From positions 1 to 23,501 of IMG/VR virus record IMGVR_UViG_3300010153_000121: DNA of 23,501 nucleotides, one strand, 5' to 3'. The translations under genes were made by a program, and so were the position numbers. This document shows positions 2,652 to 23,501 of the stretch, piece by piece. Source of the stretch: a virus. Under the pieces are notes generated by a model. The model had not been told where the DNA came from, did no database searches, and saw only the letters and a program-made list of their open reading frames with translations. Position 1 is the first letter of the stretch. Each line of letters begins with the position of its first letter.

Positions 2652-4115
2652 ATGGCATTGACTAACGTACTAAAAACGTACTACAATGATTCGCAGATGA
2701 CTGACACCAATTCGTTGGTCAATGCGTTGATGGAGAAGCCGGAAGAGCTGTCTCCAATTATCACGCACCTCGCAGGGCGTGAAGAAAAGAAATTCCCATT
2801 GTCTTTCATGACAGAGGGAGTAGGTAACACTAAATCTATCGATCGTTTTGAATACGAGTACCGAGTGAAAACTCATGAGGTAAACGTTCGTCCGGTTGTA
2901 GCTGCTTCTGGAACAGGAGCTGGTGGTGCAACTTTTACTATTACTTTCCCAGATCGCTGGTTTGTATTCCCATACACTCTAGTTTCTGAAAATGGGGTAT
3001 TAGCTCGTATTATGGAAGAACCGTCAGCTGTAAGTGGCGGGTATCGCTATACTATGAAGCTTGTATCACCAGATCAAGCCGCTCTTGTAGACACAGATAC
3101 TACTGGAGATCTTGCACCTGGTGCAATGTGGGGTCAGCTATACGCTAACGTAGGAATTGACTTCTCTCGTGGAAACGCTTCTAACTGGAGTGCACCTGGC
3201 TTAGTTCGTTCTAAGATTGGAACTATTCGTAAGTCTTATCAGTTTTCTGGTAATGCAAAAGACTACGTTGCTCAATTTGAACTCCCACTAAAAGAAGGTT
3301 CTACTACTAAACTTTGGATGGACTATGAAGAGTACCGTCATATGTTGAAGTTTAAGGAAGAGTGTGAGATGTACTACTGGTATGGCCAGAAGACTCATGA
3401 CTCTACCGGTCGAACTAATATGGTAGATGAAAATGGACAACCAGTTGTTTCTGGTCCTGGTTTATTCGAGCAGATTATCAATAAAGATTCTTACTCTACA
3501 TTAACTCAAACTAAAATTGAGGATGTGATTGGTGACTTATTCTACGGAATGACTGACGCTACTGATAAACAGGTTACTTTGTATACTGGTATTGGGGGAG
3601 CACGTGAATTTGATAAAGCTATGCGTAACTACTACGCTAGCGGCAATGGTGGGGCTACTAGTGTTACTGCAGGACAGCGTGGCTACTTAACTACTTCAGA
3701 TTCTAAGTTCATTACAGGTAGTGGACGTAGTCTTGGTGTTACTGGTTACTTCAACTCTTATGACCACATTGATGGACATACAGTAAACGTAGTTAAAGTT
3801 CCATTATTTGACCATGGTCCTGTTGCTCAGGCTTCTAGGAAGCACCCAGAGTCGGGTCTTCCATTAGAGTCTTATCGAATGACATTTGTTGACCAGTCTA
3901 CTTATGACGGAGAAAACAATCTCCAAATGATCAATAAGAAAGGTCGTGAAATGTTGCGTTGGGCTGTTGCTGGTTCTGTTGTGCCTAAGGGCTTTACAGG
4001 GTCTGACACTCGCGCTAGTGATATAGACGGTGCTTCCGTACACATGCTAAAGACAGCTGGTATCCTGCTTCGCAGATTTGATACTTCGCTTGATATGACT
4101 TGTACTGCATCGTAA
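2652..4115 (+). CDS. Major capsid protein
   Basis: The 487-residue product is of a size usual for HK97-fold capsid proteins of crAss-like and flavobacterial podoviruses. It lies directly after the scaffold and is followed by a strong hairpin, as expected for the most highly expressed late gene. Visible features include an N-terminal arm (residues 1-60), a charged and aromatic stretch EEYRHMLKFKEECEMYYWYG at about 226-245 that resembles the long spine helix region, and a C-terminal domain that ends in RRFDTSLDMTCTAS. Arginine is coded by CGN in about 21 of 23 cases, unlike the AGA-rich large adhesin gene downstream, which suggests selection for efficient translation. The start context AATCATG recurs at other genes here. 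Family membership is inferred from context and length; a structure search would settle it. Confidence 0.85.
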   Translation: MALTNVLKTYYNDSQMTDTNSLVNALMEKPEELSPIITHLAGREEKKFPLSFMTEGVGNTKSIDRFEYEYRVKTHEVNVRPVVAASGTGAGGATFTITFPDRWFVFPYTLVSENGVLARIMEEPSAVSGGYRYTMKLVSPDQAALVDTDTTGDLAPGAMWGQLYANVGIDFSRGNASNWSAPGLVRSKIGTIRKSYQFSGNAKDYVAQFELPLKEGSTTKLWMDYEEYRHMLKFKEECEMYYWYGQKTHDSTGRTNMVDENGQPVVSGPGLFEQIINKDSYSTLTQTKIEDVIGDLFYGMTDATDKQVTLYTGIGGAREFDKAMRNYYASGNGGATSVTAGQRGYLTTSDSKFITGSGRSLGVTGYFNSYDHIDGHTVNVVKVPLFDHGPVAQASRKHPESGLPLESYRMTFVDQSTYDGENNLQMINKKGREMLRWAVAGSVVPKGFTGSDTRASDIDGASVHMLKTAGILLRRFDTSLDMTCTAS

Positions 4116-4235: not shown

Positions 4236-5039
4236 ATGAGAAAAATTTACATTCGACGAAAGGAGACTTCAAGTTTCCTACCAAAAGAGGTCCGAGTAGG
4301 AGCTCGAGTTACAATTGGTTCTATATTTGTAGGACGACAACCACTCAGAGGAGTGGAAGGAGAAGAGGCTAAAAAGTACCTACCAGGTCTTATAGGTCTA
4401 CCGTATGATCACCCAGACTTTCCTTCGCGGGAAAAAGATTACTGGGCAAGTCTAAGAGTTAAAGTCCCATTTGAAGGAAAAGAACTTGATATTAGTACTC
4501 ACGAAGATGGTAGTCCTATCAATGTTGAAGATTACATTACTTATAAATGGTGTATGAAACACAGACAAGTAGTTGAAACTAAAGAAGAAATGACTACTAC
4601 TTCAGGTGCTAGATTCTACATATACGATCCTCAAAAGGATTTAATTAAAAAGAACGCAAGAGTTAAAATTGCAAAAGAAGCAGATAAAGAGTTTATTAAA
4701 GCTTCTTCAGATGTTGCAAGAATGAAAAGATTATTAAGGGTATTAACGAATACAAACCCTGATAAACTTACAGATCTAGAAATTGAAAATAGTTTGTATG
4801 ATTTAAAAACTAAATCACCTGCTAAATTTCATAAAGCAGCCATAGATAAAGATCTTGATCTTAAAGATGAGATTGCTGAAATGGTACAACAAGATATCAT
4901 TCGTAAGATAGGCAACCAGCATATCCACGGTGATGAAACAATAGGAGAAGATTTAACTGATACTATTGTATATTTTAAAAATAAAAAGAACTCAGGAGCA
5001 ATAAATGCACTGAGGGCAAAACTTAAAGAAGTCAAGTGA
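4236..5039 (+). CDS. Structural-module protein of unknown function
   Basis: This 267-residue protein is not recognised. Its N-terminal part (residues 1-60) looks beta-rich: KIYIRRKETSSF, VRVGARVTIGSIFVG. This is followed by an aromatic and charged middle (DYWASLRVKVPFEGKELDI at about 68-86) and a mostly helical, lysine-rich C-terminal half (about 125-267). No membrane segment or signal peptide is present, and there is one cysteine. The gene lies between the capsid protein and a ring-type connector candidate and overlaps the latter by four bases, so a role in head completion or the head-tail interface is plausible. A regulatory role cannot be excluded, because the long charged helical half is also seen in nucleic-acid-binding proteins. 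The start follows directly on the tandem repeat. Confidence 0.8.
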   Translation: MRKIYIRRKETSSFLPKEVRVGARVTIGSIFVGRQPLRGVEGEEAKKYLPGLIGLPYDHPDFPSREKDYWASLRVKVPFEGKELDISTHEDGSPINVEDYITYKWCMKHRQVVETKEEMTTTSGARFYIYDPQKDLIKKNARVKIAKEADKEFIKASSDVARMKRLLRVLTNTNPDKLTDLEIENSLYDLKTKSPAKFHKAAIDKDLDLKDEIAEMVQQDIIRKIGNQHIHGDETIGEDLTDTIVYFKNKKNSGAINALRAKLKEVK

Positions 5040-6232
5040 CAATAGAAGAGATGCATATTGCTGTTAACCTGGGAGTCCAAAAAATTGGGTCTTTCCAGGT
5101 TGACAATCTCTTGCCTGAAGAAATAGACCATGAGCTTAATTTAGCTCAGCGTCGTTTCATCAAGCAAAAATACTCTGCTACGTCAAACCCAAAACAAATT
5201 GGATTTGAACAATCGCAAAAAAGATTAGATGATCTTCGTAATTTAATTGAAGATTTTACAGCTTATGAGAATTTCTATATGGGTCCTATTTACACATCTA
5301 GCTCTAAAGGAGATATTTTTGTAGATCGATATAAACTGCCTTTAGATTACATGCATTTAGTTAGCGTTAGAAGTGAGGTTAAAGATGGATGTAATAAAGC
5401 TATTCAAATAAGGATTGAAGATCAAAGATTTGAATATTTACGTATTCCTATTACAATAAATTTAAGAGGTTTTTATCTTACTAGTATTCTTCTTGCAAAT
5501 AGTGATGGGGGTGTAAATTCAATTAAAAGTAATCCTAATGGATTAACTATAGATGATCTTAGACGAGATGATTATCCTTATGGATTACAACCTAGTTTAT
5601 CATCAAATGATACATTTAGTGATCTTACAAGTAATAGTTTATCTGCAGATTCACCTGTTGCAGATGCAAATGAAATTTTCTTAAAAAAATCTAAAACTGA
5701 TGGAATAGATGCGGATGGTAATACCAATAGTTTTTCAATAGTTACAGCAGATGGTCTTGGGGCTGAAAGTGCGGGAGCTTATGCTATTTTAGTATTTACT
5801 AATGCAAGAGGAGAACAAGAAAGTATAAATGTTATGCAACCTCCTATTTCTGCTAGAAACCAATCACGTAAACATAATCCTACATCTAAAAATGATTTTT
5901 TAGTTAAAAGAACACTTTGCAAGTATGTTCAACAGGATGATATATATAAAGTATTAGATGATCCTTTTTCTTCAACAAAAGCATCATCACCATTGTATAC
6001 AGTTCAAGAAAATTTTGTAGATTTGTATTCAACTATAACCTTTTTACCAACTACTACAGTAATAAAGTATTTAAGGAGACCAGCTATTATGCGCAAAGCA
6101 ACAGGAGCTGGTTCCGAACTGCCTGAACACACTCATGACGAGATCATAGAGATGGCAGTTAAAAGCATTTTGGAGACAATTGAATCTCCAAGATATCAAT
6201 CACAATCTAACGAAGTGTTGGAGAGTGAATAA
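5036..6232 (+). CDS. Putative head-tail connector/ring protein
   Basis: The 398-residue product begins with a helical block typical of connector or tail-adaptor proteins in crAss-like and marine podoviruses: LPEEIDHELNLAQRRFIKQK at residues 26-45, then FEQSQKRLDDLRNLIEDF at about 57-74. A beta-rich part follows with YKLPLDYMHLVSVRSEV at about 99-115. The C-terminus is again helical, with ELPEHTHDEIIEMAVKSILE before ESPRYQ. Residues about 160-260 are serine/asparagine-rich and look like a variable insertion. The chosen GTG start overlaps the previous stop as GTGA; an in-frame ATG at 5051 is an alternative that would remove five residues. Such proteins form a ring under the portal. The family assignment is from remembered sequence pattern and context, not from a search. 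Confidence 0.6.
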   Translation: MTIEEMHIAVNLGVQKIGSFQVDNLLPEEIDHELNLAQRRFIKQKYSATSNPKQIGFEQSQKRLDDLRNLIEDFTAYENFYMGPIYTSSSKGDIFVDRYKLPLDYMHLVSVRSEVKDGCNKAIQIRIEDQRFEYLRIPITINLRGFYLTSILLANSDGGVNSIKSNPNGLTIDDLRRDDYPYGLQPSLSSNDTFSDLTSNSLSADSPVADANEIFLKKSKTDGIDADGNTNSFSIVTADGLGAESAGAYAILVFTNARGEQESINVMQPPISARNQSRKHNPTSKNDFLVKRTLCKYVQQDDIYKVLDDPFSSTKASSPLYTVQENFVDLYSTITFLPTTTVIKYLRRPAIMRKATGAGSELPEHTHDEIIEMAVKSILETIESPRYQSQSNEVLESE

Positions 6233-7998: not shown

Positions 7999-10900
7999 AT
8001 GGCTGGTAAGTATACAAAGAGTAAGAAAAAAAGTACAAAAACTACTAGTACTACAATAAGTTCTGTATCAGGAGGTACTAAAAGTGTTAGTAGTTCTGGA
8101 AGTGTAGGTAGTGGTGGAGGTCGAACTGATGATCCAAACGCTGGAAGTTCTGGTTCTGCTAATTTAAATTTTAGACCTTCTCGTCATTTTTACGTAGTTC
8201 CTACATCTGCTGACTTTCGATTAGAACATGCTGCTACAACTGTAATAGCTCCATACAAAACATATTTAGGACAATTAGGCCCTTATGTAGGAGCAGGAGG
8301 AAAAGTAAGTGATGATGTTGATAATAAATTTTATGTTGGTGCTCAAGGATTTGCAGAAGTAGTTGGCGTAGTTCCTACTAAACTTACAATAGGTAGAGAA
8401 GAAACTACAGGAGCCAAACTACTACAGGACCACATAGAAGCTATAAAGTATAACTATTTATCAAATGGTCATAAAACAATTTCTATTATTTATCCTAAGT
8501 CATCAAGTAAAGATATTAGAGAACGTATTATACAATTTAATGTTTTATTTAGTGATGGATCTGTTATTACAGTAAAACAACCTGTAGTATCTAACACCTT
8601 AGTAAGCGGAAATGGTATAGTAGCTGAAATAGATACAGGCGGTCTTCACCAAAACCCTGTGTTTAGAAACCTAAGAAATAATGGAGGTATATCTTTTAAA
8701 ATAGGTGCTCCCGCAGGCAGAGGTACTGTGACTTCTTTTATATCTGCAGGAAGTTGGATTAGAGGAAATTTTAAAGGAGGAGATAATTTAACTCCAAAAA
8801 AACATTTATGGTGGAAAGTTACAGGAAGACGTGAAGGAGGTGTTGGAAAAATTGGAGCTGTTTTTCATCAACAAGCTTACGAATCATATGGAACAGCTGG
8901 AGGTAGTAATTCTGTTAACGGGATTACATACGGTCTTGAACCGACTGTTCGTTTTAACTGGAAATCACGATATGGTCTAGCAGATAGAAATTCTTTTGCT
9001 GTTAAAACTGGTGCAGATTCGTTTGAAGGTTCTGCTGCTAATGAATTAGTAGGATCTAGTTTATACCCTAGAGGTTATTCTAAATATACTATAGCTGGAA
9101 ATTTAACAAGTAATAACGCAAGGCTTCCACGATGGCAATCTGTAAATAAACTAGGAGCTATAAATTATGAAGAAAATTCTGACGCCTATTCACAATATCC
9201 TACTAATAGGTTTGGTCCTGTAAATTCTCATTATAATGGAGGAGTTGGACACACAATACAACAAGATGGATTATGTATTTCTTTTAAATTGTTAACTAAT
9301 GAAGCAGATGCATCTAGTTTTCAGCCTCGTAATTTAAATAGAGCCCATGAATCATTAGCTCTTTCATTACGAGGATTTTTAAAAGGGTTAACAGAAAGTG
9401 TTTATATTAGTGATGGAGATGGCGATGGTGGATATGGTGGTGGCGACGGTGGTGGCCACGGTGGTGGTGATGATCACCCTGATGGACCTGATGGAGGTGG
9501 TGGCCATGGTGGTGGAGGTGGAAATGGAGATGATGGAGATAACGGTGGAGGGGGACCTAGTTATCCTGACCATGGAGGTTTTGGTGTAGAAGATGATTTT
9601 GGACTTGGTAAAAGAATATCTGGACTAAATACTGGGTCAGTAGAAATACCTAGTTCTGATCCTTTTAATATAACAGCTAATTATTATAATAATAATTTAT
9701 CAGCTGGTGAGATTTGTATGAAAACTCCTGAAGCAGGAGATACACATATATCTATTGGCCAAGGACCTGCTGATACAATTGCAAATTTAATTACAGGAAA
9801 CAGAAATTTATTTTTTACACCTGTAACCGGAGGTTCAAATCTTAAGCAAAGAGCGGTATTTGCAGCTGCGATGGGAAGATCAGTAGGTGAATATAGCTTA
9901 TCAACTAGCCAATGGTACGCTGATGAAGTTTTTGTAAATGATGAGACCTCAGGAAGTTCTGCTGATACTATAGGAGTTATATTACCATTTATGGGTACTA
10001 ATATTCGTCAAGGTTTTAGAACAGGAGAAAGAGGAGATTTAGCGCCTGATCCACAAAGTCCAAATTACAGGGGAAACGTAGTAATGCAAGCTATACCTTT
10101 TTTTAATTATATAGATTTTCCAGTAATTGAAAATGTTTATGAGCATGTAGATAAAACAGGTAGACAATCAAGGATAAAAGATGAAATTACAGAATTTCCT
10201 GCTGCTCAAGGAGTACCTGATTATGTAAGTAATAGCACTTATACTAAATCTGGAGCTACGTCAGCTACTAGAGCTATAAATAAATTACCTGTTGAGTTAA
10301 ATACATCTATATTTCCTTCCACATTTAATGGATTTAAAGCTCCTGCATATGTAAATGTAGATCCAAATACAACTTATACAATAGATAATAAACATGCTCC
10401 TGGGAATATGTCAAGTGGTAATCTACCTACCATAGGATTTGATAGAGAAACAAGACAACCTTGGGGACGATTAAATATAGACTATGGGAGTAGCCTTTAT
10501 AGTAATTACCTTATAAGTGGATATCTTCAAGATACTTTTGCTTATGCAGCAGGAAAATTGTCTAATTGCATGGTGTTTTATAACACTAGTATTGAATTAA
10601 ACTATGCAGAAAATAGAAGTTTATCTCCTAAATTAAAATTTACGCAAAAACTAGATTTGTCAGTAGAGTCTTTACTGCAAGCTGTGCCGATAAATGGTTT
10701 TATACAAAATGCTTTTGAGCTTCCACAAGACCTTTTTAGCTTACAATTTCAAACAAATTTAAGTAGTGGAGCTACTACAGTAAATTCAGAGCCACAAATT
10801 GACAGTGATTCTAATATATATGATATATATGATTGGAAATACACTCCTGGACGTTTTTTAGCAGATAATGCTTTATTTCCTATAAATACGGATGACATAG

Positions 10901-13900
10901 CTTCAGAAAGTGACATTACCTTTTATCGGAAGCTCGATATATCAGATTATGCGTACTTATTAAATGCTAGTGAATCCACTGCACAAACAACTACTATTAT
11001 ATTAGATGAAGAAGCTCCTGATAATGCAAGACCTTTTGTAGATATAGATGTAGAAGATATTCCTAGTGAAGGTTGGAATAATATTAATTCAAATAATTTG
11101 CAATTTAATGCTGCTAGTCAAATTGTAATATCTAAAACAACACAACCAATAGGTCATATTGGAAATATTTTAACAGGTGCAGATACTCAAAATTTAATAT
11201 GGTCACGAGAATATAATTTTGTTGTTCCTGGATTAACTGATTATGAAGGAGGGTTTGATACTGACGAAGTGCGTGGATGTATGGATGCTGATGCACAAAA
11301 TTTTAATGCAGAAGCTACAATTAGTGATGGTAGTTGTATTTATTGCAAACCTAAAAATAGTGATATTGTAAATCCACATTTATATATTCAAAATGGAATT
11401 AGTGGAGTAATTCCTAACCAAGCTGCGGCAGGCCAGTTTATTTTAGATGCTCCTAAAATGGGCAATGGAAGTTCATATGGTCTAGGAGGATACGTAACTA
11501 ACTCATCTTGGGCTATAGGTAATATTGGAAATGCTGTTAATTATGCAGATCCTACTTTAGGAATAGCAATTAATAATCCAGCAACAGCTGCTCCTTTTAC
11601 ATCTATGCAATTTGAAGCTAATGTAAGTCTTACAGGTATAATAAATGCTGCTCAATCTGCAGGATCTACTGTAAATACAGAAGCATGGGCAGAATATTGG
11701 ATAGAAAATCTTCCTCCTGAATCATTTAGTCTTATTATATACCCAATTGATGCATTTGATGAGGATCATTTTAATTGGGGTACAACAAATACATTAGCAA
11801 CATATACTCAATTACCAATTTTAGAAGGGTACAGTAGTGTAATTACTTTAGAAAATCAAGGAGATTCTCAACAAATTAAATTTGGAACAGATTATCCTGG
11901 TGATATAGGTAATGTTTCTTTAGGGCTTGAGCCAGGGCAACATTATTTAGCAGTACTTCAAATTCAACCAGTTGGATGCAATAGTAATTTTTATCTAGCT
12001 TATAATTTTTGGGTTCTATATTGTGATTGTAATCTTGAAGATGCAAATAATTTTGGAGGAAATAACTGGAATTATCCTTGGAGTAATATAAGCGCATTTC
12101 CAGGAGGATGGGGAGGTACTCATAAATTTTGTTTTGAAAATCCTACTTCAAGTAAAGGATGGCGTAGAACTAAAAAAGGAGCAAATGATGAAGAAGATCC
12201 AGGCTTATGCGAATTACCAGAAGAATATACTGATTGTAGTCAATTTATAGATTGGTGTGTTGTAAGTGATACTTTTGATTGTGAGCTTACGGGAAATGTT
12301 GCGTCGGGTTTCCAAAATATAGGAACTGGTACTTTAAGTATAAATGTATATGGTGTTTACACAGGATCTGAAGCAGAGTATTCAGAATATGCTTTATATG
12401 TAAATGGGCAATTATTTGAATTTAAAATTGAGCTTCTTGATATTAATACAGGTATAATAATAGATACAATTATTGTAGATGATCTTGATGATTATCTAAC
12501 TTTGTCTGGAGGTATCTCTCCGCAAAATATGCAATTTGTACAAGTTCTTTTTGAAGACATCCCAGAAGGAAATTATTACGTACATCTTACTCAATTAGGG
12601 GCATTATTCCCAATGCAAGATCCAGATGGTGCTTTATGCACATATGTACATCCAAGTGCAGGCTCTAATGAAGTAACTATTGGAGGAGATGAACCTTGTG
12701 ATAATGATATTATTTGTGATTGTAATGATCCTGCTGCATATAACTATAATCCTAATGCTACTACTGTTGTTAATGGAGTACCTTTTGATGAGTGTAATGA
12801 TCAATGTTTATATGAAGACTGTAGTGAGATATTCTCTCAAGTACTAATTACAGACGTTATTACAACTAACTCAACTGCAGAATGCGCAGAAATAGAAATA
12901 GATACAGATAGTGATGGTGTAAATGATACTACTAGTTATTATTTAGCAGATACTGCATCTGGAACTGCATCTTTTGGAGTAAGTAATTTTGATGCTAGCC
13001 AAACTGTAGGAAATAACCTTGTAACGAATGGCAATTTTAGCGCAACAAGTACAACAAAAATACTTGATGGAAACTTTCCTTCACCTAACGTAAATTGGAT
13101 ATTACATTCATCCACAATAAACGGAGGAAGCGCGACTATTACGGGTTTAGGTAGTTTAACAAGTACGGGAAACAATTGGAGCGTTTCACAAAATGTCATT
13201 GATATTGGTGTTCGTTCTTACAAAGTAACTTTTACAGCAAAACAATTAACGGGTACAGGTGCTATGTATGGCGGTATAGGTTATAATAATATCTTTAACC
13301 AAGTTGTCACGGGTGAATTTGTTACATATACATTTCATCAACATAATGTTGTCACGGAGGGCAATGGAACTCGCGTAGCATTTGGCGGTGTTTTAGCAAC
13401 TGGAGGAGAAACAGCAAACACGTTTGAAATAAAAGACGTTGTAGTTCAGGAACTCGGCGAAGATTGGACATTTGGAACGGCTTGGAGTATAACTCTGGAC
13501 GATAGTTTAGGGTCTAGAGCTTCAGTAGATTCTACTGAAACTCGTCTTTTAAGTCAGTCTACTATAAATTTAGTAGCTGGAACTTTTTATAAAATTACTT
13601 GTGAAGTAAGTAGTTACGCAGCAGGTGCATTGCAAATTCAATTTGGTGGCCTTCAGGTATTAGGCAGTACAACTAGTGACGGAGTATTTACTGTATTTGG
13701 TACGCCAGATACTAACGGCTTACCTCTTTATTTGTATGGAGTTGCTATAGATGGTGATGTAGATTTTTCAGTAGACAATGTCTCAGTTAAAGAAATTGAA
13801 GTTACAGACTTTAATATTGGTATTGTTTCTCTTTTAAATGGAGATCAAAGTACAGGAACCCAAACATTATTCCAGTATTATAGTAATAACTCTGAAGCAA

Positions 13901-15402
13901 TAATTAGTGCAGCACCAGGTACTGCTAGTATAATAACTCAAAATGGAGTAACTGTAGGTGCATTTTTATCACTAAATCAAACTACAATACCATCTGGAGT
14001 TTTTTCTGCAAATAATTTATATGCAGGAAATTTCTTAGCATTTGCAATACCAGTATCAACAGCTGTTAGTCCTGAAACTAATAACATTGAAACTTGTGAA
14101 AACGAGCTATTAGAGATTTTAGATAATTTTGCTACTTTTCAAATTTTATTAGATACCTCATCAATTCCTGATGGGTCATGTCCGGAAGGATGTAATGAAG
14201 TTACTAATCCAGAAGATTGTGATGATTATGTTGCAGGATGTACAGATGAATCAGCTAGTAATTACAATCCTTTAGCTACATACGATAGTGGAGATTGTGA
14301 GTATGGAGGAGCTGAAGACTGTGTTACTACACCAAGTTTACCAGAATGTGAGGAGTGTGAAGGAACATCAGATGCTCCTGGAGGAGGTTTAAGAATGTGT
14401 GATGAAGTAAATGGTAATGAAGCAGGATGTATGGATCCTTTAGCTTGTAACTATAATGCAAATGCTGTTATAGCAATGCCATTTTTATGTGAGTATTGCT
14501 GTGACGGAGATGATGATTGTGTAGAAACTGGAGAAGATGACGAGTGTCAAGATGAATTAGGAAATATTGATCCTGATTGTGTTACCTCTGAATGCCCAGA
14601 TCCTACTAATCCAAATTGTGGTCAACCTCCAATAAATCCATGTCCTAACCCAGGCGATTGTCCCCCACCCCCAGTTCCAGATTGTATACAATTAGGAACT
14701 TGTGGAGATGATGATGATTCTACAGATGACCCAAATGTTATTATAGACGATGTAAGTGTAGATGTAATATCTTGTGATCCATTATTTAATGGGCTAGAAT
14801 TTAGCCAATGGCAAGAAACTGCTATGACATGCTCTGCTGAAAAAGGCACGCAAATGTTATTTAAACTTCGTTCTGGAGTTAAGCAAAGTAAAACAGATAT
14901 GATTAAATTAGTATTAATTAATTATCTGTTTAATCAAGGATTAGACTTACCTTGCCTATACAGTTGCGATGCAGAAACAAAAACACTTCGTAATCGTAAT
15001 GTTGTTAAAGATTGTTTAAGAAATTGGGCACTAAGTGGTTCACAAAACTGGACTCCAAAAAGTACTTACTTAAAAGGGGAAACAGTTAGAGTACTTAAAA
15101 ATGTAAGAGGTCAAACAAAAGCTTCTTATTATATAGCTAAACAAAATATTCCTGCGCAACAAGTTAGACCTGATACTAAGATTCCTAATAATAGTTTTTG
15201 GGAATTATGCAGAACAAGAAAACCTCAAGAGTCTTCTGTAAAAGGTGCAAATTACTTACAAACTTTATATGAGTTTATGATTAAGCATTGCGAAAATTGT
15301 AGTATAAGACCTAGAGGTACTGAAACTTATCAAGGTAATGATAACGTTAAATCAATTCAATCAGGATTATCAGATGCTGATGACAACGAAATAATATTCT
15401 AA
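7999..15402 (+). CDS. Giant mosaic adhesin / tail-associated protein
   Basis: At 2467 residues this is the largest gene. In order: a low-complexity S/T/K/G-rich N-terminus (1-55); a beta-rich region (about 55-470); a Gly/Asp/His linker (about 471-530); further beta-rich blocks; the first host-type Cys repeat (1093-1113); a second (from about 1575); a TSP3-like loop starting at D1635; two tandem jelly-roll, carbohydrate-binding-like domains (about 1675-1820 and 1820-1933); two more Cys repeats (2080-2100, 2143-2164); a D/C/P-rich stretch; and a C-terminal region with a W..Y..G..V pattern like a CBM5/12 chitin-binding module (about 2351-2404). There is no signal peptide. The protein is most likely a virion-attached receptor-binding or surface-adhesion protein. 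The fibre gene starts after a one-base gap. A tape-measure role is unlikely because long helices are absent. The virion location is inferred from context. Confidence 0.75.
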   Translation: MAGKYTKSKKKSTKTTSTTISSVSGGTKSVSSSGSVGSGGGRTDDPNAGSSGSANLNFRPSRHFYVVPTSADFRLEHAATTVIAPYKTYLGQLGPYVGAGGKVSDDVDNKFYVGAQGFAEVVGVVPTKLTIGREETTGAKLLQDHIEAIKYNYLSNGHKTISIIYPKSSSKDIRERIIQFNVLFSDGSVITVKQPVVSNTLVSGNGIVAEIDTGGLHQNPVFRNLRNNGGISFKIGAPAGRGTVTSFISAGSWIRGNFKGGDNLTPKKHLWWKVTGRREGGVGKIGAVFHQQAYESYGTAGGSNSVNGITYGLEPTVRFNWKSRYGLADRNSFAVKTGADSFEGSAANELVGSSLYPRGYSKYTIAGNLTSNNARLPRWQSVNKLGAINYEENSDAYSQYPTNRFGPVNSHYNGGVGHTIQQDGLCISFKLLTNEADASSFQPRNLNRAHESLALSLRGFLKGLTESVYISDGDGDGGYGGGDGGGHGGGDDHPDGPDGGGGHGGGGGNGDDGDNGGGGPSYPDHGGFGVEDDFGLGKRISGLNTGSVEIPSSDPFNITANYYNNNLSAGEICMKTPEAGDTHISIGQGPADTIANLITGNRNLFFTPVTGGSNLKQRAVFAAAMGRSVGEYSLSTSQWYADEVFVNDETSGSSADTIGVILPFMGTNIRQGFRTGERGDLAPDPQSPNYRGNVVMQAIPFFNYIDFPVIENVYEHVDKTGRQSRIKDEITEFPAAQGVPDYVSNSTYTKSGATSATRAINKLPVELNTSIFPSTFNGFKAPAYVNVDPNTTYTIDNKHAPGNMSSGNLPTIGFDRETRQPWGRLNIDYGSSLYSNYLISGYLQDTFAYAAGKLSNCMVFYNTSIELNYAENRSLSPKLKFTQKLDLSVESLLQAVPINGFIQNAFELPQDLFSLQFQTNLSSGATTVNSEPQIDSDSNIYDIYDWKYTPGRFLADNALFPINTDDIASESDITFYRKLDISDYAYLLNASESTAQTTTIILDEEAPDNARPFVDIDVEDIPSEGWNNINSNNLQFNAASQIVISKTTQPIGHIGNILTGADTQNLIWSREYNFVVPGLTDYEGGFDTDEVRGCMDADAQNFNAEATISDGSCIYCKPKNSDIVNPHLYIQNGISGVIPNQAAAGQFILDAPKMGNGSSYGLGGYVTNSSWAIGNIGNAVNYADPTLGIAINNPATAAPFTSMQFEANVSLTGIINAAQSAGSTVNTEAWAEYWIENLPPESFSLIIYPIDAFDEDHFNWGTTNTLATYTQLPILEGYSSVITLENQGDSQQIKFGTDYPGDIGNVSLGLEPGQHYLAVLQIQPVGCNSNFYLAYNFWVLYCDCNLEDANNFGGNNWNYPWSNISAFPGGWGGTHKFCFENPTSSKGWRRTKKGANDEEDPGLCELPEEYTDCSQFIDWCVVSDTFDCELTGNVASGFQNIGTGTLSINVYGVYTGSEAEYSEYALYVNGQLFEFKIELLDINTGIIIDTIIVDDLDDYLTLSGGISPQNMQFVQVLFEDIPEGNYYVHLTQLGALFPMQDPDGALCTYVHPSAGSNEVTIGGDEPCDNDIICDCNDPAAYNYNPNATTVVNGVPFDECNDQCLYEDCSEIFSQVLITDVITTNSTAECAEIEIDTDSDGVNDTTSYYLADTASGTASFGVSNFDASQTVGNNLVTNGNFSATSTTKILDGNFPSPNVNWILHSSTINGGSATITGLGSLTSTGNNWSVSQNVIDIGVRSYKVTFTAKQLTGTGAMYGGIGYNNIFNQVVTGEFVTYTFHQHNVVTEGNGTRVAFGGVLATGGETANTFEIKDVVVQELGEDWTFGTAWSITLDDSLGSRASVDSTETRLLSQSTINLVAGTFYKITCEVSSYAAGALQIQFGGLQVLGSTTSDGVFTVFGTPDTNGLPLYLYGVAIDGDVDFSVDNVSVKEIEVTDFNIGIVSLLNGDQSTGTQTLFQYYSNNSEAIISAAPGTASIITQNGVTVGAFLSLNQTTIPSGVFSANNLYAGNFLAFAIPVSTAVSPETNNIETCENELLEILDNFATFQILLDTSSIPDGSCPEGCNEVTNPEDCDDYVAGCTDESASNYNPLATYDSGDCEYGGAEDCVTTPSLPECEECEGTSDAPGGGLRMCDEVNGNEAGCMDPLACNYNANAVIAMPFLCEYCCDGDDDCVETGEDDECQDELGNIDPDCVTSECPDPTNPNCGQPPINPCPNPGDCPPPPVPDCIQLGTCGDDDDSTDDPNVIIDDVSVDVISCDPLFNGLEFSQWQETAMTCSAEKGTQMLFKLRSGVKQSKTDMIKLVLINYLFNQGLDLPCLYSCDAETKTLRNRNVVKDCLRNWALSGSQNWTPKSTYLKGETVRVLKNVRGQTKASYYIAKQNIPAQQVRPDTKIPNNSFWELCRTRKPQESSVKGANYLQTLYEFMIKHCENCSIRPRGTETYQGNDNVKSIQSGLSDADDNEIIF
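9411..9590 (+). repeat. Gly/Asp/His low-complexity linker in the adhesin
   Basis: The DNA here is built from near-repeats of GGTGGTGG, GATGGAG and GGCCA/CGGTGG. It encodes about 60 residues that are mostly G and D with H and P (adhesin residues 471-530). It separates the N-terminal region from the rest of the protein and probably acts as a flexible, possibly metal-binding, hinge. Both strands are open here for about 180 bases as a side effect of the repeat. Confidence 0.85.
11275..11337 (+). repeat. Cys-bounded host-type repeat 1 in adhesin
   Basis: Residues 1093-1113 follow the pattern G-C-[MT]-D-x2-A-x-N-[FY]-N-x2-A-T-x2-D-G-S-C and are followed by I-Y-C. The repeat is of the kind seen in tandem in large secreted proteins of marine Flavobacteriia. 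Its fold and ligand are not known to me; a disulfide between the bounding cysteines is likely. Confidence 0.85.
12721..12807 (+). repeat. Cys-bounded host-type repeat 2 in adhesin (degenerate, longer)
   Basis: The repeat starts at residue 1575 as C-N-D-P-A-A-Y-N-Y-N-P-N-A-T. It then has a longer stretch than the other copies before its closing cysteines, near residues 1599 and 1603. The core NYNPNAT is intact. The leading glycine is replaced by aspartate and cysteine. Confidence 0.75.
13021..13467 (+). other. Codon-atypical carbohydrate-binding-like domain in adhesin
   Basis: Adhesin residues about 1675-1823 form a jelly-roll-like domain: a NGNF start, strands SYKVTFTAKQL and VTYTFHQHNV, and an end of the EIKDVVVQEL type followed by GEDWTFGTAWS, the usual junction to a next such domain in phage adhesins. 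Codon use changes here. The segment has eight ACG (counting one just past its end) and five GGC codons plus GCG, CGC and GTC, which are rare in the flanking adhesin sequence, where ACT/ACA, GGA/GGT and AGA dominate. This suggests a recently acquired domain. Confidence 0.6.
13456..13797 (+). other. Second carbohydrate-binding-like domain in adhesin
   Basis: Residues about 1820-1933 run from EDWTFGTAWSI to FSVDNVSVKEI. The GTAWS start, the YKITCEVSSY strand and the DNVSVKE ending match jelly-roll (CBM4/CenC-type) modules common in marine phage tail proteins. Codon use is like the rest of the adhesin, unlike the domain just before it. Confidence 0.6.
14236..14298 (+). repeat. Cys-bounded host-type repeat 3 in adhesin
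   Basis: Residues 2080-2100 begin GCTDESASNYNPLAT and end in a closing cysteine after Y-D-S-G-D. It closely matches the first repeat of the secreted protein near the window end (GCTSESASNYNPWAT), which suggests a common source. Confidence 0.9.
14425..14490 (+). repeat. Cys-bounded host-type repeat 4 in adhesin
   Basis: Residues 2143-2164 begin GCMDPLACNYNANA and close with C, followed by E-Y-C-C. There is an extra cysteine within the core (A-C-N-Y-N), as in some flavobacterial copies. Confidence 0.85.
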
Positions 15403-17812: not shown

Positions 17813-18250
17813 ATGAGCAAGAAAAAAATAAAAGATACTAAGCTAGGCGCTTGGTTATCAGAAAAAGCCCCAAATATATTGGGTGTAGTAGGAGATCTTC
17901 TTCCTGATTCTGGTGGACTAGGTGTAGTTAAAAACCTAATTAGTAAAGATGATAGCATTGACCCTGCAGAGGCTCAAGCTAAAATAGATGCTGAAATACG
18001 ATTTCAAGAGAACGTAACAGAGCGATGGAAAGCTGATATGGGTAGCGATGTAAAACTTGCTAAACTTATACGTCCTGTTACTCTTATATGCCTTATGGGA
18101 ATGTTTGTGATAACTATGTTTATAGATAGCATGGATAATGTAGCATTTAATGTAAAGGATTCTTATGTATCCTTATTAGAGCTACTTATGCTTACAGCAT
18201 TTGGTGCATACTTTGCTGGGCGTACTATAGAAAAGAAAGCTAAAAAATAA
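17813..18250 (+). CDS. Holin
   Basis: The 145-residue protein has a soluble N-terminal half with an amphipathic helical stretch (LGVVGDLLPDSGGLGVVKNLI, split by a glycine-rich turn) and two membrane segments, at about residues 88-105 and 118-137. The strong pattern is NVTERWKADMGSD before KLIRPVTL, followed by NVKDSYVSLLELLMLTAFGAYFAGR and a lysine-rich tail (EKKAKK). This matches the GTA-type/3TM holin family (Pfam GTA_holin_3TM, from memory) widespread in marine phages. Holins permeabilise the inner membrane at the end of infection. No endolysin is adjacent, so the muralytic enzyme must lie outside the window. Confidence 0.8.
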   Translation: MSKKKIKDTKLGAWLSEKAPNILGVVGDLLPDSGGLGVVKNLISKDDSIDPAEAQAKIDAEIRFQENVTERWKADMGSDVKLAKLIRPVTLICLMGMFVITMFIDSMDNVAFNVKDSYVSLLELLMLTAFGAYFAGRTIEKKAKK

Positions 18251-19407: not shown

Positions 19408-19690
19408 AGACATAGAAGATGATTTTGATATTACTTCATCAATTGATGAGGAAATAGAAATACTAGACGAAGCATATCGTAATGCATATGCTATTGTTAC
19501 TGGTAAAATGACCGTACGAGATCTTTTAAACAAGACTCCTGATATGATCTTTTTACCATTTGACCCTAATGACGCTGAGTCATTTGCTAGGATCTTAGAT
19601 GATGTAATTAAATACTTTGAGGAGAATGAAGAATATGAAAAATGTGCTGAGTTAATTAGCAGCAAAAAACAGTTAGATGACCCTAGATGA
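19394..19690 (+). CDS. Small acidic protein, function unknown
   Basis: This 98-residue product starts at the ATG at 19394 (MLEFEDIEDDFDIT), overlapping the phosphoesterase stop by 14 bases. The frame is open upstream to 19220, but that stretch lies inside the well-supported phosphoesterase gene and is a shadow. The protein is acidic and helical, with the motif FDPNDAESFARILDDVIKYF and then EEYEKCAELISSKKQL near the C-terminus. The 'I.YFE..EEYEKCAEL' pattern recurs in small phage proteins. A 14-base overlap also joins it to the next gene. No function is assigned; it may be a regulator or assembly factor. Confidence 0.75.
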   Translation: MLEFEDIEDDFDITSSIDEEIEILDEAYRNAYAIVTGKMTVRDLLNKTPDMIFLPFDPNDAESFARILDDVIKYFEENEEYEKCAELISSKKQLDDPR

Positions 19691-20339
19691 GATTGCATAC
19701 AATATATTAAACCTCATTAGAGGGGGTAGGTCTAATAATGATGATATTATATCATTAGATCAACTTAAATTTAATATACAGCACTATCGTGCTATGTTCA
19801 TACGTAGAGACTATGCTAGAAATGCGTATGTCTCTAATTCACTTGAACAAGATTTAGGGTGTCTTGATATAATTAAAGTAGATGCATCTAAATGTTGCAA
19901 TCTTCCACAGGATTGTCCTGTATATAGAACTAAAAGAAAATTACCTAGAACGGTAAGATTTAATTTTAGGGACGCTTTTACTTTTATAGGTAAACCTAAT
20001 GGCACAGGAACTATACCAAGAGTAGAAGCACACGAAGTAGAATATATACCTTATGATAAATACACTGCAGGTAACACTAAATATTATGTTATTGACGAGT
20101 ATATTTATATTTATAATCCAAAAGGATTAGAAGCTATTAATGTCCGTGGGGTTTTTGAAAATCCTAAAGACGTAGCTGAATTCGCAACATGTGAAACAGG
20201 TGTATGTTATGATGACCAGTCTCCTTATCCCCTCCCTATGGATATGGTTAGTAATATTACTGCTGGGTTAGCACAAGGGGAACTAATACTTTTAACCGGA
20301 AGTGTCAATGATACTTCTAATGATAGACAACAAAATTAA
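19677..20339 (+). CDS. Second ring/tail-adaptor candidate
   Basis: The 220-residue protein begins MTLDEIAYNILNLIRGGRSN and continues with LDQLKFNIQHYRAMFIRRDY (28-47), EQDLGCLDI, then a KLPRTVRF / FTFIG / YIPYDKY sequence. It has a C-terminal helix with YPLPMDMVSNITAGLAQGEL before TGSVNDTSNDR. I recall this arrangement from structural proteins of crAss-like and related Bacteroidota phages, which are tentatively placed as tail-adaptor or ring proteins. Cysteines occur at 62, 73, 74, 80, 172 and 177. The 14-base overlap with the preceding gene supports the start at 19677. The role is inferred from pattern and context. Confidence 0.6.
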   Translation: MTLDEIAYNILNLIRGGRSNNDDIISLDQLKFNIQHYRAMFIRRDYARNAYVSNSLEQDLGCLDIIKVDASKCCNLPQDCPVYRTKRKLPRTVRFNFRDAFTFIGKPNGTGTIPRVEAHEVEYIPYDKYTAGNTKYYVIDEYIYIYNPKGLEAINVRGVFENPKDVAEFATCETGVCYDDQSPYPLPMDMVSNITAGLAQGELILLTGSVNDTSNDRQQN

Positions 20340-20341
20340 TT

Positions 20342-21145
20342 ATGGCACTTAATACAACAAGAGAAAGACTTCTCGACAAACAAAGAAAGGCTGCTGAAGC
20401 AACCCAAAAAGCTGCAGAAGAAACCAAAACATCTCAAGATGCAGCAAATGCTTTATTAACATCTATTAAAACAGCAGTTGAAGCTTTAGATAATAGTGTT
20501 GCTGGAAATGAAACGCAAGTAGATATTGTTGCATCTCTACCTGCAGGTACAAATATAATAGGAAGTATTTTAGCTCTATCTCAAGCTTTACCTGCAGGAA
20601 CCAATGCCATTGGTAAATTAGCAGCAAACAGTGGTGTAGATATTGGTGATGTAGATGTTACTAGTATTGTACCAGGAACTGGGAGCACTAACTTAGGTAA
20701 AGCAGAAGACGCAGCACACTCTAGTGGTGATGTTGGTGTTATGCCACTTGCAGTTAGAAACGACGCAATTGCAACACTTGGTGGATCAGACGGAGACTAC
20801 GCACCATTACAAGTAGATGCAACAGGAGCTCTTTACACAAACAATCAGTTTGGGACATTTGGTAGTATTCTAGTTACAGGAACTACAGCAGTAACATGTG
20901 CTATAGCAGATAGAGTATTTGTAGCTATTTATATGCTTACAGATACAGTATTTAATTCTGCTTCAGGAGGTTTAGTTGCAGAAACAGAACAACTTTACTT
21001 AGATGATACTGGTGCAGGAACAAGCATTGATGCTAACGGAGGTGCTGCAATTGACAGTATTACTTTTCCTGCAGGTATGACTTTATATGGTAGGTATGAT
21101 GGATTTACTTTGGCTTCAGGATCAGTAGTAGCATACGTAGGATAA
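20342..21145 (+). CDS. Coiled-coil fibre / virion structural protein
   Basis: The 267-residue protein has an N-terminal alanine-, lysine- and glutamate-rich coiled coil (residues about 5-50: RERLLDKQRKAAEATQKAAE...). Two short repeats follow (SLPAGTNIIGSI and ALPAGTNAIGKL), then LGKAEDAAHSSGDVGVMPLAVRND, DGDYAPLQVDATGALYT and a beta-rich C-terminal domain with FGSILVTGTTAVTCAIAD and FPAGMTLYGRYDGFTLASGSVVAYVG. The 'LGKAEDAAHSSGDVGVM.LAVRND' block is highly characteristic of structural proteins in many marine phage genomes. A trimeric fibre with an N-terminal coiled-coil anchor and a C-terminal beta domain is likely. It overlaps the LamG gene by one base (TAATG). Confidence 0.75.
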   Translation: MALNTTRERLLDKQRKAAEATQKAAEETKTSQDAANALLTSIKTAVEALDNSVAGNETQVDIVASLPAGTNIIGSILALSQALPAGTNAIGKLAANSGVDIGDVDVTSIVPGTGSTNLGKAEDAAHSSGDVGVMPLAVRNDAIATLGGSDGDYAPLQVDATGALYTNNQFGTFGSILVTGTTAVTCAIADRVFVAIYMLTDTVFNSASGGLVAETEQLYLDDTGAGTSIDANGGAAIDSITFPAGMTLYGRYDGFTLASGSVVAYVG

Positions 21146-21879
21146 TGTTAGGATTAGGATTAGGTATAAAAGCAGCTCCAAACGTAGTAGCAGCAGCAAG
21201 CTTTGCTAATACTAAGTCTCTAGACTTTGATGGCTCTAATGATTACGTAAATACTAATTACACGGCTAACGATTTATTTAGAGGTAATTTTAGTTTTAGT
21301 TATTGGTTAAATTTAGATTCAGCAACCGGAATAGCAATAGGTGTTGAAAGAGGAACTCATTCCTCATTTGTGATACAACACTTTAATGGAAATATTAATG
21401 CATTTCATTACTCTAATAGCGATGTTGCAATTCCAGGGTCAAGTTCTACTCCAATATCTCTAGATACGTGGCATCATGTAGTGTGGACTGCAACAAAAAA
21501 TTCAGGAAGCACTACATCATATGTCTTATATGTAGACGGTTCAGCTGTAGCCACTTCTTTTTTTGCAGGTTTTACTCTGTCTGAAGCTAACCACAACGCG
21601 TGGGATGGTGATGGTGAATTCTTAGCTATTGGTGCATCCAATGATGACGGGACTCCAGATACGTTTGTAAATGGGAACATAGATGAAGTTGCAATATTTA
21701 ATAAAGCTCTTTCTTCAGGTGAAGCAAACGCTATATATAATAGCGGTGTACCAAAAAACGAAAGTAGTCATGATAATCTTTTACTTTACTACAGATTTGA
21801 AGATGATGTAACAGATACGGCAGGAACAAGTAATGCAACAAATAACGGAGCTACATTTAGTTCTACTGTACCCTCGTAA
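21145..21879 (+). CDS. LamG-like (concanavalin-type) carbohydrate-binding protein
   Basis: The 244-residue protein is almost entirely one LamG/concanavalin A-like jelly-roll. Evidence is SLDFDGSNDYV (residues 25-35), FSFSYWLNLDS (about 49-59), WHHVVWTATKNSG (109-121), YVLYVDGSAVAT (127-138), FLAIGASNDDG (159-169), IDEVAIFNKALSSGEANAIY (179-198) and LLLYYRFEDDVTDTAG (212-226). These domains bind glycans or proteins and are common in phage surface proteins and in secreted Bacteroidota proteins. The N-terminal segment MLGLGLGIKAAPNVVAAAS is hydrophobic but lacks a convincing signal peptide. A receptor-binding or virion-surface role is likely. Confidence 0.85.
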   Translation: MLGLGLGIKAAPNVVAAASFANTKSLDFDGSNDYVNTNYTANDLFRGNFSFSYWLNLDSATGIAIGVERGTHSSFVIQHFNGNINAFHYSNSDVAIPGSSSTPISLDTWHHVVWTATKNSGSTTSYVLYVDGSAVATSFFAGFTLSEANHNAWDGDGEFLAIGASNDDGTPDTFVNGNIDEVAIFNKALSSGEANAIYNSGVPKNESSHDNLLLYYRFEDDVTDTAGTSNATNNGATFSSTVPS

Positions 21880-22092: not shown

Positions 22093-22365
22093 ATGGCAAC
22101 AGCAGCGTGGACAAGAAAAGCAGGAAAGAGTAAATCTGGAGGATTAAATCGTAAGGGTATTGCTTCTTATCGTAAAGCAAACCCAGGAAGTAAATTGTCT
22201 ATGGCAGTTACTGAAAAAAATCCTAAAGGTAAGAAAAAATCTAGACGCAAATCTTTTTGCTCACGTATGTGTGGTATGAAAAAAAGACTTACAGGAGCTA
22301 AGAAAAAAAGAGATCCTAATTCAAGAATTAATAAAGCACTTAGAAAATGGAGATGCAGATGTTAA
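22093..22365 (+). CDS. Basic DUF6321-like protein of marine phages
   Basis: The 90-residue protein is very basic. It begins WTRKAGKSKSGGLNRKG, has a middle 'ASYRK..PGS', then RRKSFCSRMCGMKKR, and ends RINKALRKWRCRC. The pattern 'W-T-[RK]-x-x-G-K-x-x-x-G-G-L-N', then 'RRKSFC.RM.GM' and a final 'AL.KW.C' is one I recognise as the small uncharacterised family DUF6321, found in many marine phages. Its four cysteines (C56, C60, C88, C90) and high arginine/lysine content suggest nucleic acid binding or metal binding. Function is unknown; packaged-DNA or host-takeover roles are speculative. Confidence 0.8.
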   Translation: MATAAWTRKAGKSKSGGLNRKGIASYRKANPGSKLSMAVTEKNPKGKKKSRRKSFCSRMCGMKKRLTGAKKKRDPNSRINKALRKWRCRC

Positions 22366-23501
22366 TAAAACAATTAATTACAATATTATTAGTAACTTTA
22401 TCTAGCTTAGTTTTTGCTCAGCCTGATAATGCTAGTTGGCTAAACGTAACGGTACAAACAGATCAGTACGGTGCGGAAACATCTTGGGAAATATTGATGG
22501 GAGGTGAGGTTGTTGCAATAAGCCCTCTATACCAAAACAGTACGCTAAGCAATGTAACGATACCTTTGCCTGCAGGAGATGACTATGAGTTTATTATTTA
22601 TGATTCTTTTGGGGATGGTATATGTTGTGACTTTGGTGCAGGTTGGTATAGTCTTACTAATACATGTGGTTTAGAGATATTTAATTATGAGTTTAATAGT
22701 GCATCAGATACTACAGGCTTTAACTTGTTTCCATGTCTACCTGTTTTATTTGGATGTACAAGCGAATCTGCTAGCAACTATAACCCATGGGCAACAGTAG
22801 ATGACGGCAACTGTAATGTAAGTGAATGTCCTGAGGGAGAAACCTTAGTAACTATGGAGCTTACGCTAGACAACTGGCCTAATGAAACTGGATTTACTCT
22901 TGTAAATTTAGCTGTAGGTGAGTTTTATGAACAGGTGTTTCCTGGTGAGTTTGACTTCGGGGATCAGCTTGCTACATACACATATGACTTTTGTGTGTCC
23001 TTAGGGTTTGAGCTCGTACTTGTAGATACATTTGGAGATGGATTAAATGGTATAGCTAGTGGAGGAGAAGCTAATGGTGCTGTAGTTATTACATCATGCC
23101 AAGACAGCATATTATGGGAGCTAGAAGATGTAGCATTTGCAGAATTTGAAGGAGGAACAATGTACTCTGGAGCTGTGTTTACAGAACCTTGCCCGCCTGT
23201 ACCACCTATATATGGGTGTATGGATGATGATTACGTAGACTATAATCCTCTAGCTACAACCCAAGACACTTGTGAAGTATTACACACATGGGGATGTATG
23301 AACTCAGAAGCTTTTAACTATGATAATACAGCTACTATATCAGATTTTAATAGTCCTTGTCCTATAACTATTACGTTAGAAGATGATGCTGGTGATGGAT
23401 GGGGTATGTCAGGTATTGGTCTAATACAAGAAGATCAGCAATGGTTATTTACTATGGGACCTGGACAGTTTCAAGAGTCGTGGGAAATTACACTTGACTC
23501 A
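22359..23501 (+). CDS. Secreted Flavobacteriia-type protein with signal peptide (3' end outside window)
   Basis: The frame is open from the ATG at 22359 (alternative ATG at 22353) to the window end, at least 381 residues. MLIKQLITILLVTLSSLVFA-Q is a classic Sec signal peptide with cleavage after FA. Residues about 25-125 resemble a domain of secreted marine Flavobacteriia proteins: SWLNVTVQTDQYGAETSWEI, then IIYDSFGDGICCDFGAGWYS. Three Cys-bounded repeats follow, at 22752-22814, 23214-23273 and 23292-23360, separated by further 'DTFGDGLNG' and 'DDAGDGWGM' strands. The start overlaps the preceding basic gene by seven bases, so it belongs to the phage operon. A type IX sorting domain could lie beyond the window. 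It may coat the infected cell or be a virion-linked surface factor; role unknown. Confidence 0.85.
   Translation, partial: MLIKQLITILLVTLSSLVFAQPDNASWLNVTVQTDQYGAETSWEILMGGEVVAISPLYQNSTLSNVTIPLPAGDDYEFIIYDSFGDGICCDFGAGWYSLTNTCGLEIFNYEFNSASDTTGFNLFPCLPVLFGCTSESASNYNPWATVDDGNCNVSECPEGETLVTMELTLDNWPNETGFTLVNLAVGEFYEQVFPGEFDFGDQLATYTYDFCVSLGFELVLVDTFGDGLNGIASGGEANGAVVITSCQDSILWELEDVAFAEFEGGTMYSGAVFTEPCPPVPPIYGCMDDDYVDYNPLATTQDTCEVLHTWGCMNSEAFNYDNTATISDFNSPCPITITLEDDAGDGWGMSGIGLIQEDQQWLFTMGPGQFQESWEITLDS
22752..22814 (+). repeat. Cys-bounded host-type repeat a in secreted protein
   Basis: Residues 132-152 begin GCTSESASNYNPWAT and close with C after V-D-D-G-N. They match adhesin repeat 3 (14236-14298) almost position for position. 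Confidence 0.9.
23214..23273 (+). repeat. Cys-bounded host-type repeat b in secreted protein
   Basis: The copy begins at residue 286 as GCMDDDYVDYNPLAT and closes with C after T-Q-D-T. It keeps the core DYNPLAT but the N of NYN is replaced by D. Confidence 0.85.
23292..23360 (+). repeat. Cys-bounded host-type repeat c in secreted protein
   Basis: The copy begins GCMNSEAFNYDNTAT and closes with C after I-S-D-F-N-S-P. It lies 18 bases after repeat b, so the two are close to tandem, as in flavobacterial cell-surface proteins. Confidence 0.85.

Follow-up and report, generated by a model that had tools for sequence, protein, structure and literature searches.

A mobile phage gene cassette encoding a predicted type IX secretion cargo, and the cysteine module its product shares with a giant protein of a crAss-like phage

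Recurrence of one small cysteine module in both a giant protein and an exported protein of the same phage raises the question of where the module came from and what an exported protein of this kind would do for a virus. The window considered here is an entire IMG/VR fragment of 23.5 kb. The phage is called crAss-like (Crassvirales) because its predicted major capsid protein (2652..4115, + strand) matches PF23898 Crass_capsid (251 bits), a placement that rests also on a match to crAss tail ring protein 2 (19677..20339, +; PF25702 Ring_2, 3e-39, 135 bits). Aligned with crAssphage capsids over 99%, the capsid shows 28-29% identity; a weak Ring_3/4 match lies at 5036-6229, and the related viral contig L052 carries a match to PF24228 Ring_1. 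A holin-like protein is encoded at 17813..18250 (+; phrog_3427, 5e-23), and the late gene region also holds a LamG-type lectin-like protein (21145-21879; PF13385, 7e-18). Directly 5′ of the gene for the exported protein (hereafter SEC) is that of a small basic protein (22093..22365, +; PF19846 DUF6321), which overlaps the SEC start by 19 bases and often has the cassette described below close by.

The Cys module comprises about 21 residues with two cysteines, and the seven copies listed by the original prediction, four in the giant protein and three in SEC, were all recovered at their positions. Those of the giant protein are module 1 (11275..11337, +; GCMDADAQNFNAEATISDGSC), module 2, a variant with a longer last loop (12718..12795, +; DCNDPAAYNYNPNATTVVNGVPFDEC), module 3 (14236..14298, +; GCTDESASNYNPLATYDSGDC) and module 4, of a third-Cys subtype (ACNY; 14425..14490, +); the range originally given, 11275-14490, spans these copies only. 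SEC carries module a (22752..22814, +; GCTSESASNYNPWATVDDGNC), module b (23214..23273, +; GCMDDDYVDYNPLATTQDTC), which is strongly conserved across the SEC family, and module c (23292..23360, +; GCMNSEAFNYDNTATISDFNSPC). Residue shuffles of both proteins gave a mean of 0.025 module matches and a maximum of 2, against the seven observed, and the other reading frames of the window held none. A literature search of partial coverage, with most subscription journals outside it, found no published description of the module.

Flavobacteriales are a rich source of the module. Searching with a DNA pattern of its core gave 241, 192, 173, 155, 133, and 128 matches in six genomes of this order, compared with 0-1 for the reversed pattern, so that the description of the module as host-type held; since it is abundant in these genomes, it is not a sequence of phages only, the finding that was to have counted against the original prediction. 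Among 296 genomes drawn evenly across Bacteroidota, 30 had any match and only two had many, and the module therefore appears to be a specialty of certain lineages. In the order to which the Flavobacteriales MAG G064 belongs, a SEC-family profile matched 198 of 199 genomes; whole SEC was never among the matches listed, which were module arrays or the N-terminal region only. Proteases of the M43, M12 and thermolysin types are among six module-bearing host proteins that were scanned, and two of the six have a tail for the type IX secretion system (T9SS). By sequence, then, the module is a compact unit built around two cysteines that recurs in large numbers in the secreted and surface proteins of certain marine Flavobacteriales. 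It also occurs in virion structural proteins of the T4-like Synechococcus cyanophages S-CAM1 (L001), S-H9-2 (L262) and S-CAM3 (L263), and therefore extends beyond one phage-host pair. Lone copies, apparently outside SEC and the giant protein, were seen at G007:C1:21825-21854 and G030:C1:53865-53894.

The original prediction went further and proposed that small modules had recently been swapped between the two phage genes, for mimicry or to share a ligand. Sharing as such was borne out: five of six other crAss-like contigs with the cassette gene c1 have the module in both proteins, as the swapping model would expect, and the sixth shows copies in the giant protein alone. Modules 3 and a, which had been called nearly identical, agree at 16 of 21 residues (76%), a level reached by only 0.4-0.9% of random giant-protein × SEC pairs (p ~0.004-0.009, post hoc). 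Their DNA, however, is identical at 42 of 63 positions, with eight synonymous differences in the 16 shared codons. Likeness between giant-protein and SEC modules was no greater within one phage than between phages, and in a permutation test across the four genomes that carry both, 15 of 24 permutations reached the observed within-genome likeness. Each copy also resembles its own family, module a having the NPW that marks SEC relatives, and module 3 resembling giant-protein modules of L052 and L095 (GCTDESATNY...). Most cassette phages of other lineages, moreover, lack modules outside SEC (confined to the exported protein or proteins in 21 of 22 contigs, among those listed). Recent exchange was rejected on the synonymous divergence and the permutation result, and swapping of this kind is improbable; the modules of the two proteins likely share an ancient origin among the modules of the host.

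The giant protein itself (2467 aa; 7999..15402, +) is very likely a virion or tail protein, since its gene lies between crAss ring-protein genes. It has no signal peptide. The name adhesin, given to it earlier, is presumptive. Searches of Pfam, PHROGs, NCBIfam and the PDB gave no useful family match, and relatives in other crAss-like contigs carry one to four Cys modules each. Within this protein the module may act as a disulfide-held stalk or as a binding unit. Two parts of the protein are joined by a Gly/Asp-rich low-complexity linker (aa 471-524; window 9409-9570), and residues 1661-1937 (window 12979-13809) form an insertion that L095 and L052, the closest relatives, lack. Within it, residues 1674-1824 share 93% identity with a 367-aa ORF of another viral contig, L083, and this suggests a recently moved domain.

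The window holds the 5′ half of SEC, 385 residues of a Cys-rich exported protein (22347..23501, +) with no stop codon before the contig end, and no overlapping contig that would complete it was found. No family in Pfam, PHROGs, NCBIfam or the PDB covers this part. In marine crAss-like phages the gene neighbors those of the tail. Relatives occur in about 80 marine viral contigs and are mostly 58-71% identical along the window's entire SEC stretch. Complete relatives are ~740 aa long and contain a signal peptide, beta-sandwich domains, modules (median 7), a Cys-rich domain and a C-terminal T9SS type A sorting domain, with a median of 37 cysteines. Full-length proteins score 46.8 (L066), 35.6 (L010), 38.1 (L036) and 48.4 bits (L068) against PF18962, for which the curated cut-off is 27 bits, and also match TIGR04183 of NCBIfam. 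The tail family was detected in 30 of 48 contigs, in 20 of them above the PF18962 cut-off; the tail scores below it (18.5-25 bits) in some crAss-like relatives (L013, L026, L106, L116), and that of L075-type relatives has no Pfam match. The motif [YF]PNP lies near the C terminus of 47 of 56 complete SEC proteins. In a structural model of middling quality (pLDDT 67, pTM 0.26), too uncertain at the Cys modules to read their fold or calcium binding, the C-terminal domain matched T9SS substrate domains from structures solved with the translocon (8glk_D, Z 9.2, rmsd 1.8 over 68; 5ag8, Z 9.2), and 8glk was also found by sequence search with the SEC tail. At the other end, a hydrophobic signal-like N terminus, called from hydrophobicity and not by a signal-peptide predictor, is present in the window's SEC and in 72 of 74 SEC proteins (likewise in 57/57 c1 and 51/51 c2 proteins of the cassette), and is absent from the giant protein. 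Because the window's SEC ends at 385 aa, we infer its sorting domain from relatives up to ~70% identical to it. The sequence and structural matches together make it probable that SEC is a phage-encoded T9SS type A cargo, exported via host machinery.

SEC rarely stands alone. In 35 of the 38 loci having both flanks, three genes, c1, c4 and c2, lie within 5 kb of it; because SEC sits at the contig end, any c1-c4-c2 of this phage would lie outside the window. The c1 strand is always that of SEC, and eleven loci show a one-base overlap between the SEC stop and the c1 start. The c1 product is a predicted outer-membrane beta-barrel, given its signal-like N terminus, a model that closes into a 12-stranded barrel (Z 13-16 against porins and translocators) and a C-terminal residue of L, F or I in 52 of 53 proteins; two c1 proteins searched against Pfam gave no PorP_SprF match at E 0.1. 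The c1 profile finds at least 590 viral loci. Among 79 further loci of this set, a protein with a T9SS tail is encoded within 5.5 kb in 76, and in 73 such a protein carries at least three modules. The second partner, c2, would be a secreted, thioredoxin-like and redox-dead protein: its sequences carry NxxN in place of CxxC (51/51 and 0/51, respectively) and the cis-Pro motif (51/51), and score below the cut-off against PF00085 (E ~1e-3). The third, c4, is an inner-membrane protein with one membrane helix (46/50) and a coiled-coil-like tail; neither an o-spanin partner nor a family match for c4 was found in the proteins scanned.

The cassette is found well beyond crAss-like phages. The broad portal family of the window, phrog_6547, is present in 44 of 47 long SEC-bearing contigs, and the window's type of capsid in only three SEC-bearing contigs; conversely, among 23 contigs with that capsid, many of the others being fragments, six have c1. 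In another group, represented in the test by L036, the terminase shares 41-47% identity with those of Flavobacterium elemo podoviruses and of an uncultured phage. When the crAss-like L013 and L052 were compared with L047, L049, L050, L053, L054, and L067, portals were 17-19% identical, c1 76-84% and SEC 64-78%, and holin, c4, and c2 were 60-83% identical in the pairs examined. The cassette has therefore jumped between phage lineages, and since the holin gene is 74-80% identical across otherwise divergent cassette-bearing phages, these comparisons show, at the level of sequence, a mobile unit that is the whole cassette passing from phage to phage with the holin gene moving along. Neither this cassette nor type IX export figured in the original prediction. 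For host-versus-phage relationships a tree was built from the SEC N-terminal domain, the 21-residue module having too few columns. It groups the window's protein with 16 further phage proteins in a single long-stemmed clade (99/97), in which crAss and non-crAss phages are interleaved; the divergent SEC proteins of L068 and L069 and the L074-L078 group, in which a second domain was matched, were poorly placed, and the tree does not extend a common origin to them. In a plasmid search the N-terminal domain only (TDxYxxETSW...) was hit in Persicobacter and Vibrio (H101-H104), which places it on large Vibrio replicons, outside Bacteroidota.

SEC does resemble host type IX cargo, and the gene might in principle be a host fragment misjoined to phage DNA. 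This is extremely improbable, as relatives lie on ~80 viral contigs, most of the long ones with a portal gene, the nearest host proteins share single domains or short pieces only (best segments 25-47% identical), and 296 Bacteroidota genomes gave no hit to the c1 profile, which does match phage contigs. Like the type A cargo of Bacteroidota (PF18962/TIGR04183 Por_Secre_tail), full-length SEC has a signal peptide and a sorting domain, and the modules and N-terminal domain are common to both; SEC differs in being phage-encoded, in forming its own phage clade, in belonging to a phage cassette, and in not being seen whole in hosts.

Phage genes with T9SS sorting domains have been reported before. 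Cryophage carries T9SS cargo genes, which were termed a unique occurrence (PMC7468147), and gut crAss-like cluster 2 has ORFs with T9SS domains near its head genes (PMC6949934). The cargo in those phages consists of variable enzymes/PA14 or BACON proteins, whereas SEC is a conserved Cys-module protein within an envelope cassette that crosses lineages. The cyanophages S-CAM1, S-CAM3 and S-H9-2 have the same module in virion proteins, as the crAss-like giant protein does, but these are other phages with other hosts, and neither full-length SEC nor c1 had a match in 50,697 phage records. No published report of the SEC family, the c1 barrel or the cassette was found in the part of the literature covered. 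Among host systems, SprF is a PorP-family outer-membrane partner encoded beside the T9SS cargo SprB, and the arrangement is similar to that of SEC and c1 in that a cargo gene adjoins an outer-membrane barrel gene; c1, however, has no PorP_SprF match, and the SEC tail is of type A, not type B. Other phages also modify the surface of their host with envelope proteins of their own making, such as T5 Llp, lambda Lom and the PA-2 Lc porin, and T5 Llp blocks surface ligands against phage rebinding. To our knowledge, none of these three involves type IX secretion or the architecture of the SEC cassette.

Taken with its predicted partners, SEC points to a phage that probably redecorates the host surface late in infection. 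SEC would be made late, together with the holin, and exported by the host Sec and then type IX machinery; it would then appear on the cell surface, with c1 serving as partner in the outer membrane and c2 and c4 assisting in the periplasm. Displayed SEC could cover or occupy surface ligands and so keep progeny and competing phages off the dying cell. Such a shield against rebinding and superinfection is the purpose we favor, tentatively, from the architecture and by analogy with T5 Llp. A fuller version, in which a mobile cassette of several Bacteroidota phage lineages hijacks the T9SS through its own barrel and coats the cell, and the module of the crAss tail binds the same ligand, so that the coat blocks rival and sister phages, is speculative and somewhat doubtful as a whole.

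Alternatively, the cassette might be a device for lysis and exit, in which the holin, c4 (with an i-spanin-like layout), c2 and c1 break the outer membrane and SEC opens or crosslinks a surface layer. The parts would span the inner membrane, periplasm, outer membrane and surface, the holin gene travels with them at the high identity given above, and a structural search with c1 finds OMPLA among others (Z 13.6). However, OMPLA fits c1 no better than porins or autotransporters do, c1 has no family match, no endolysin or lytic enzyme was recognized among the proteins scanned, and a large Cys-rich type IX cargo would be an unusual lysis component; we regard this as a rather unlikely reading. Nor is it likely that SEC forms an adhesive coat which clumps infected cells or sticks them to particles, so that progeny meet hosts, with the modules and a CBM60-like domain binding glycans. 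Module-bearing host proteins do include secreted metalloproteases, and the SEC N-terminal domain has a weak fold match to vCBM60, a calcium-dependent glycan-binding module (2xfd; Z 7.1, rmsd 2.8 over 87), but a Z of 7 lies in the chance range for beta-sandwiches.

If the cassette works as proposed, many ocean phages rebuild the surface of infected Bacteroidota, which are major marine polymer degraders. Phage T9SS cargo, earlier the subject of isolated reports only, now becomes part of a conserved cassette that crosses deep phage lineages, with c1 at the number of viral loci given above, and the cassette names a host machine and candidate genes for superinfection exclusion, which is little known in Bacteroidota.

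A second module-bearing protein is encoded directly 3′ of SEC in L034 (12073-13635), L035 (12085-13467) and L036 (12028-13260), and the L036 protein ends in a T9SS tail of its own (28.1 bits), while its N terminus is weakly CARDB-like. The SEC relatives of L068 (9941-13717) and L069 (9938-13324) contain 22 and 17 modules, respectively, and lie on contigs that show no portal of the family named above.
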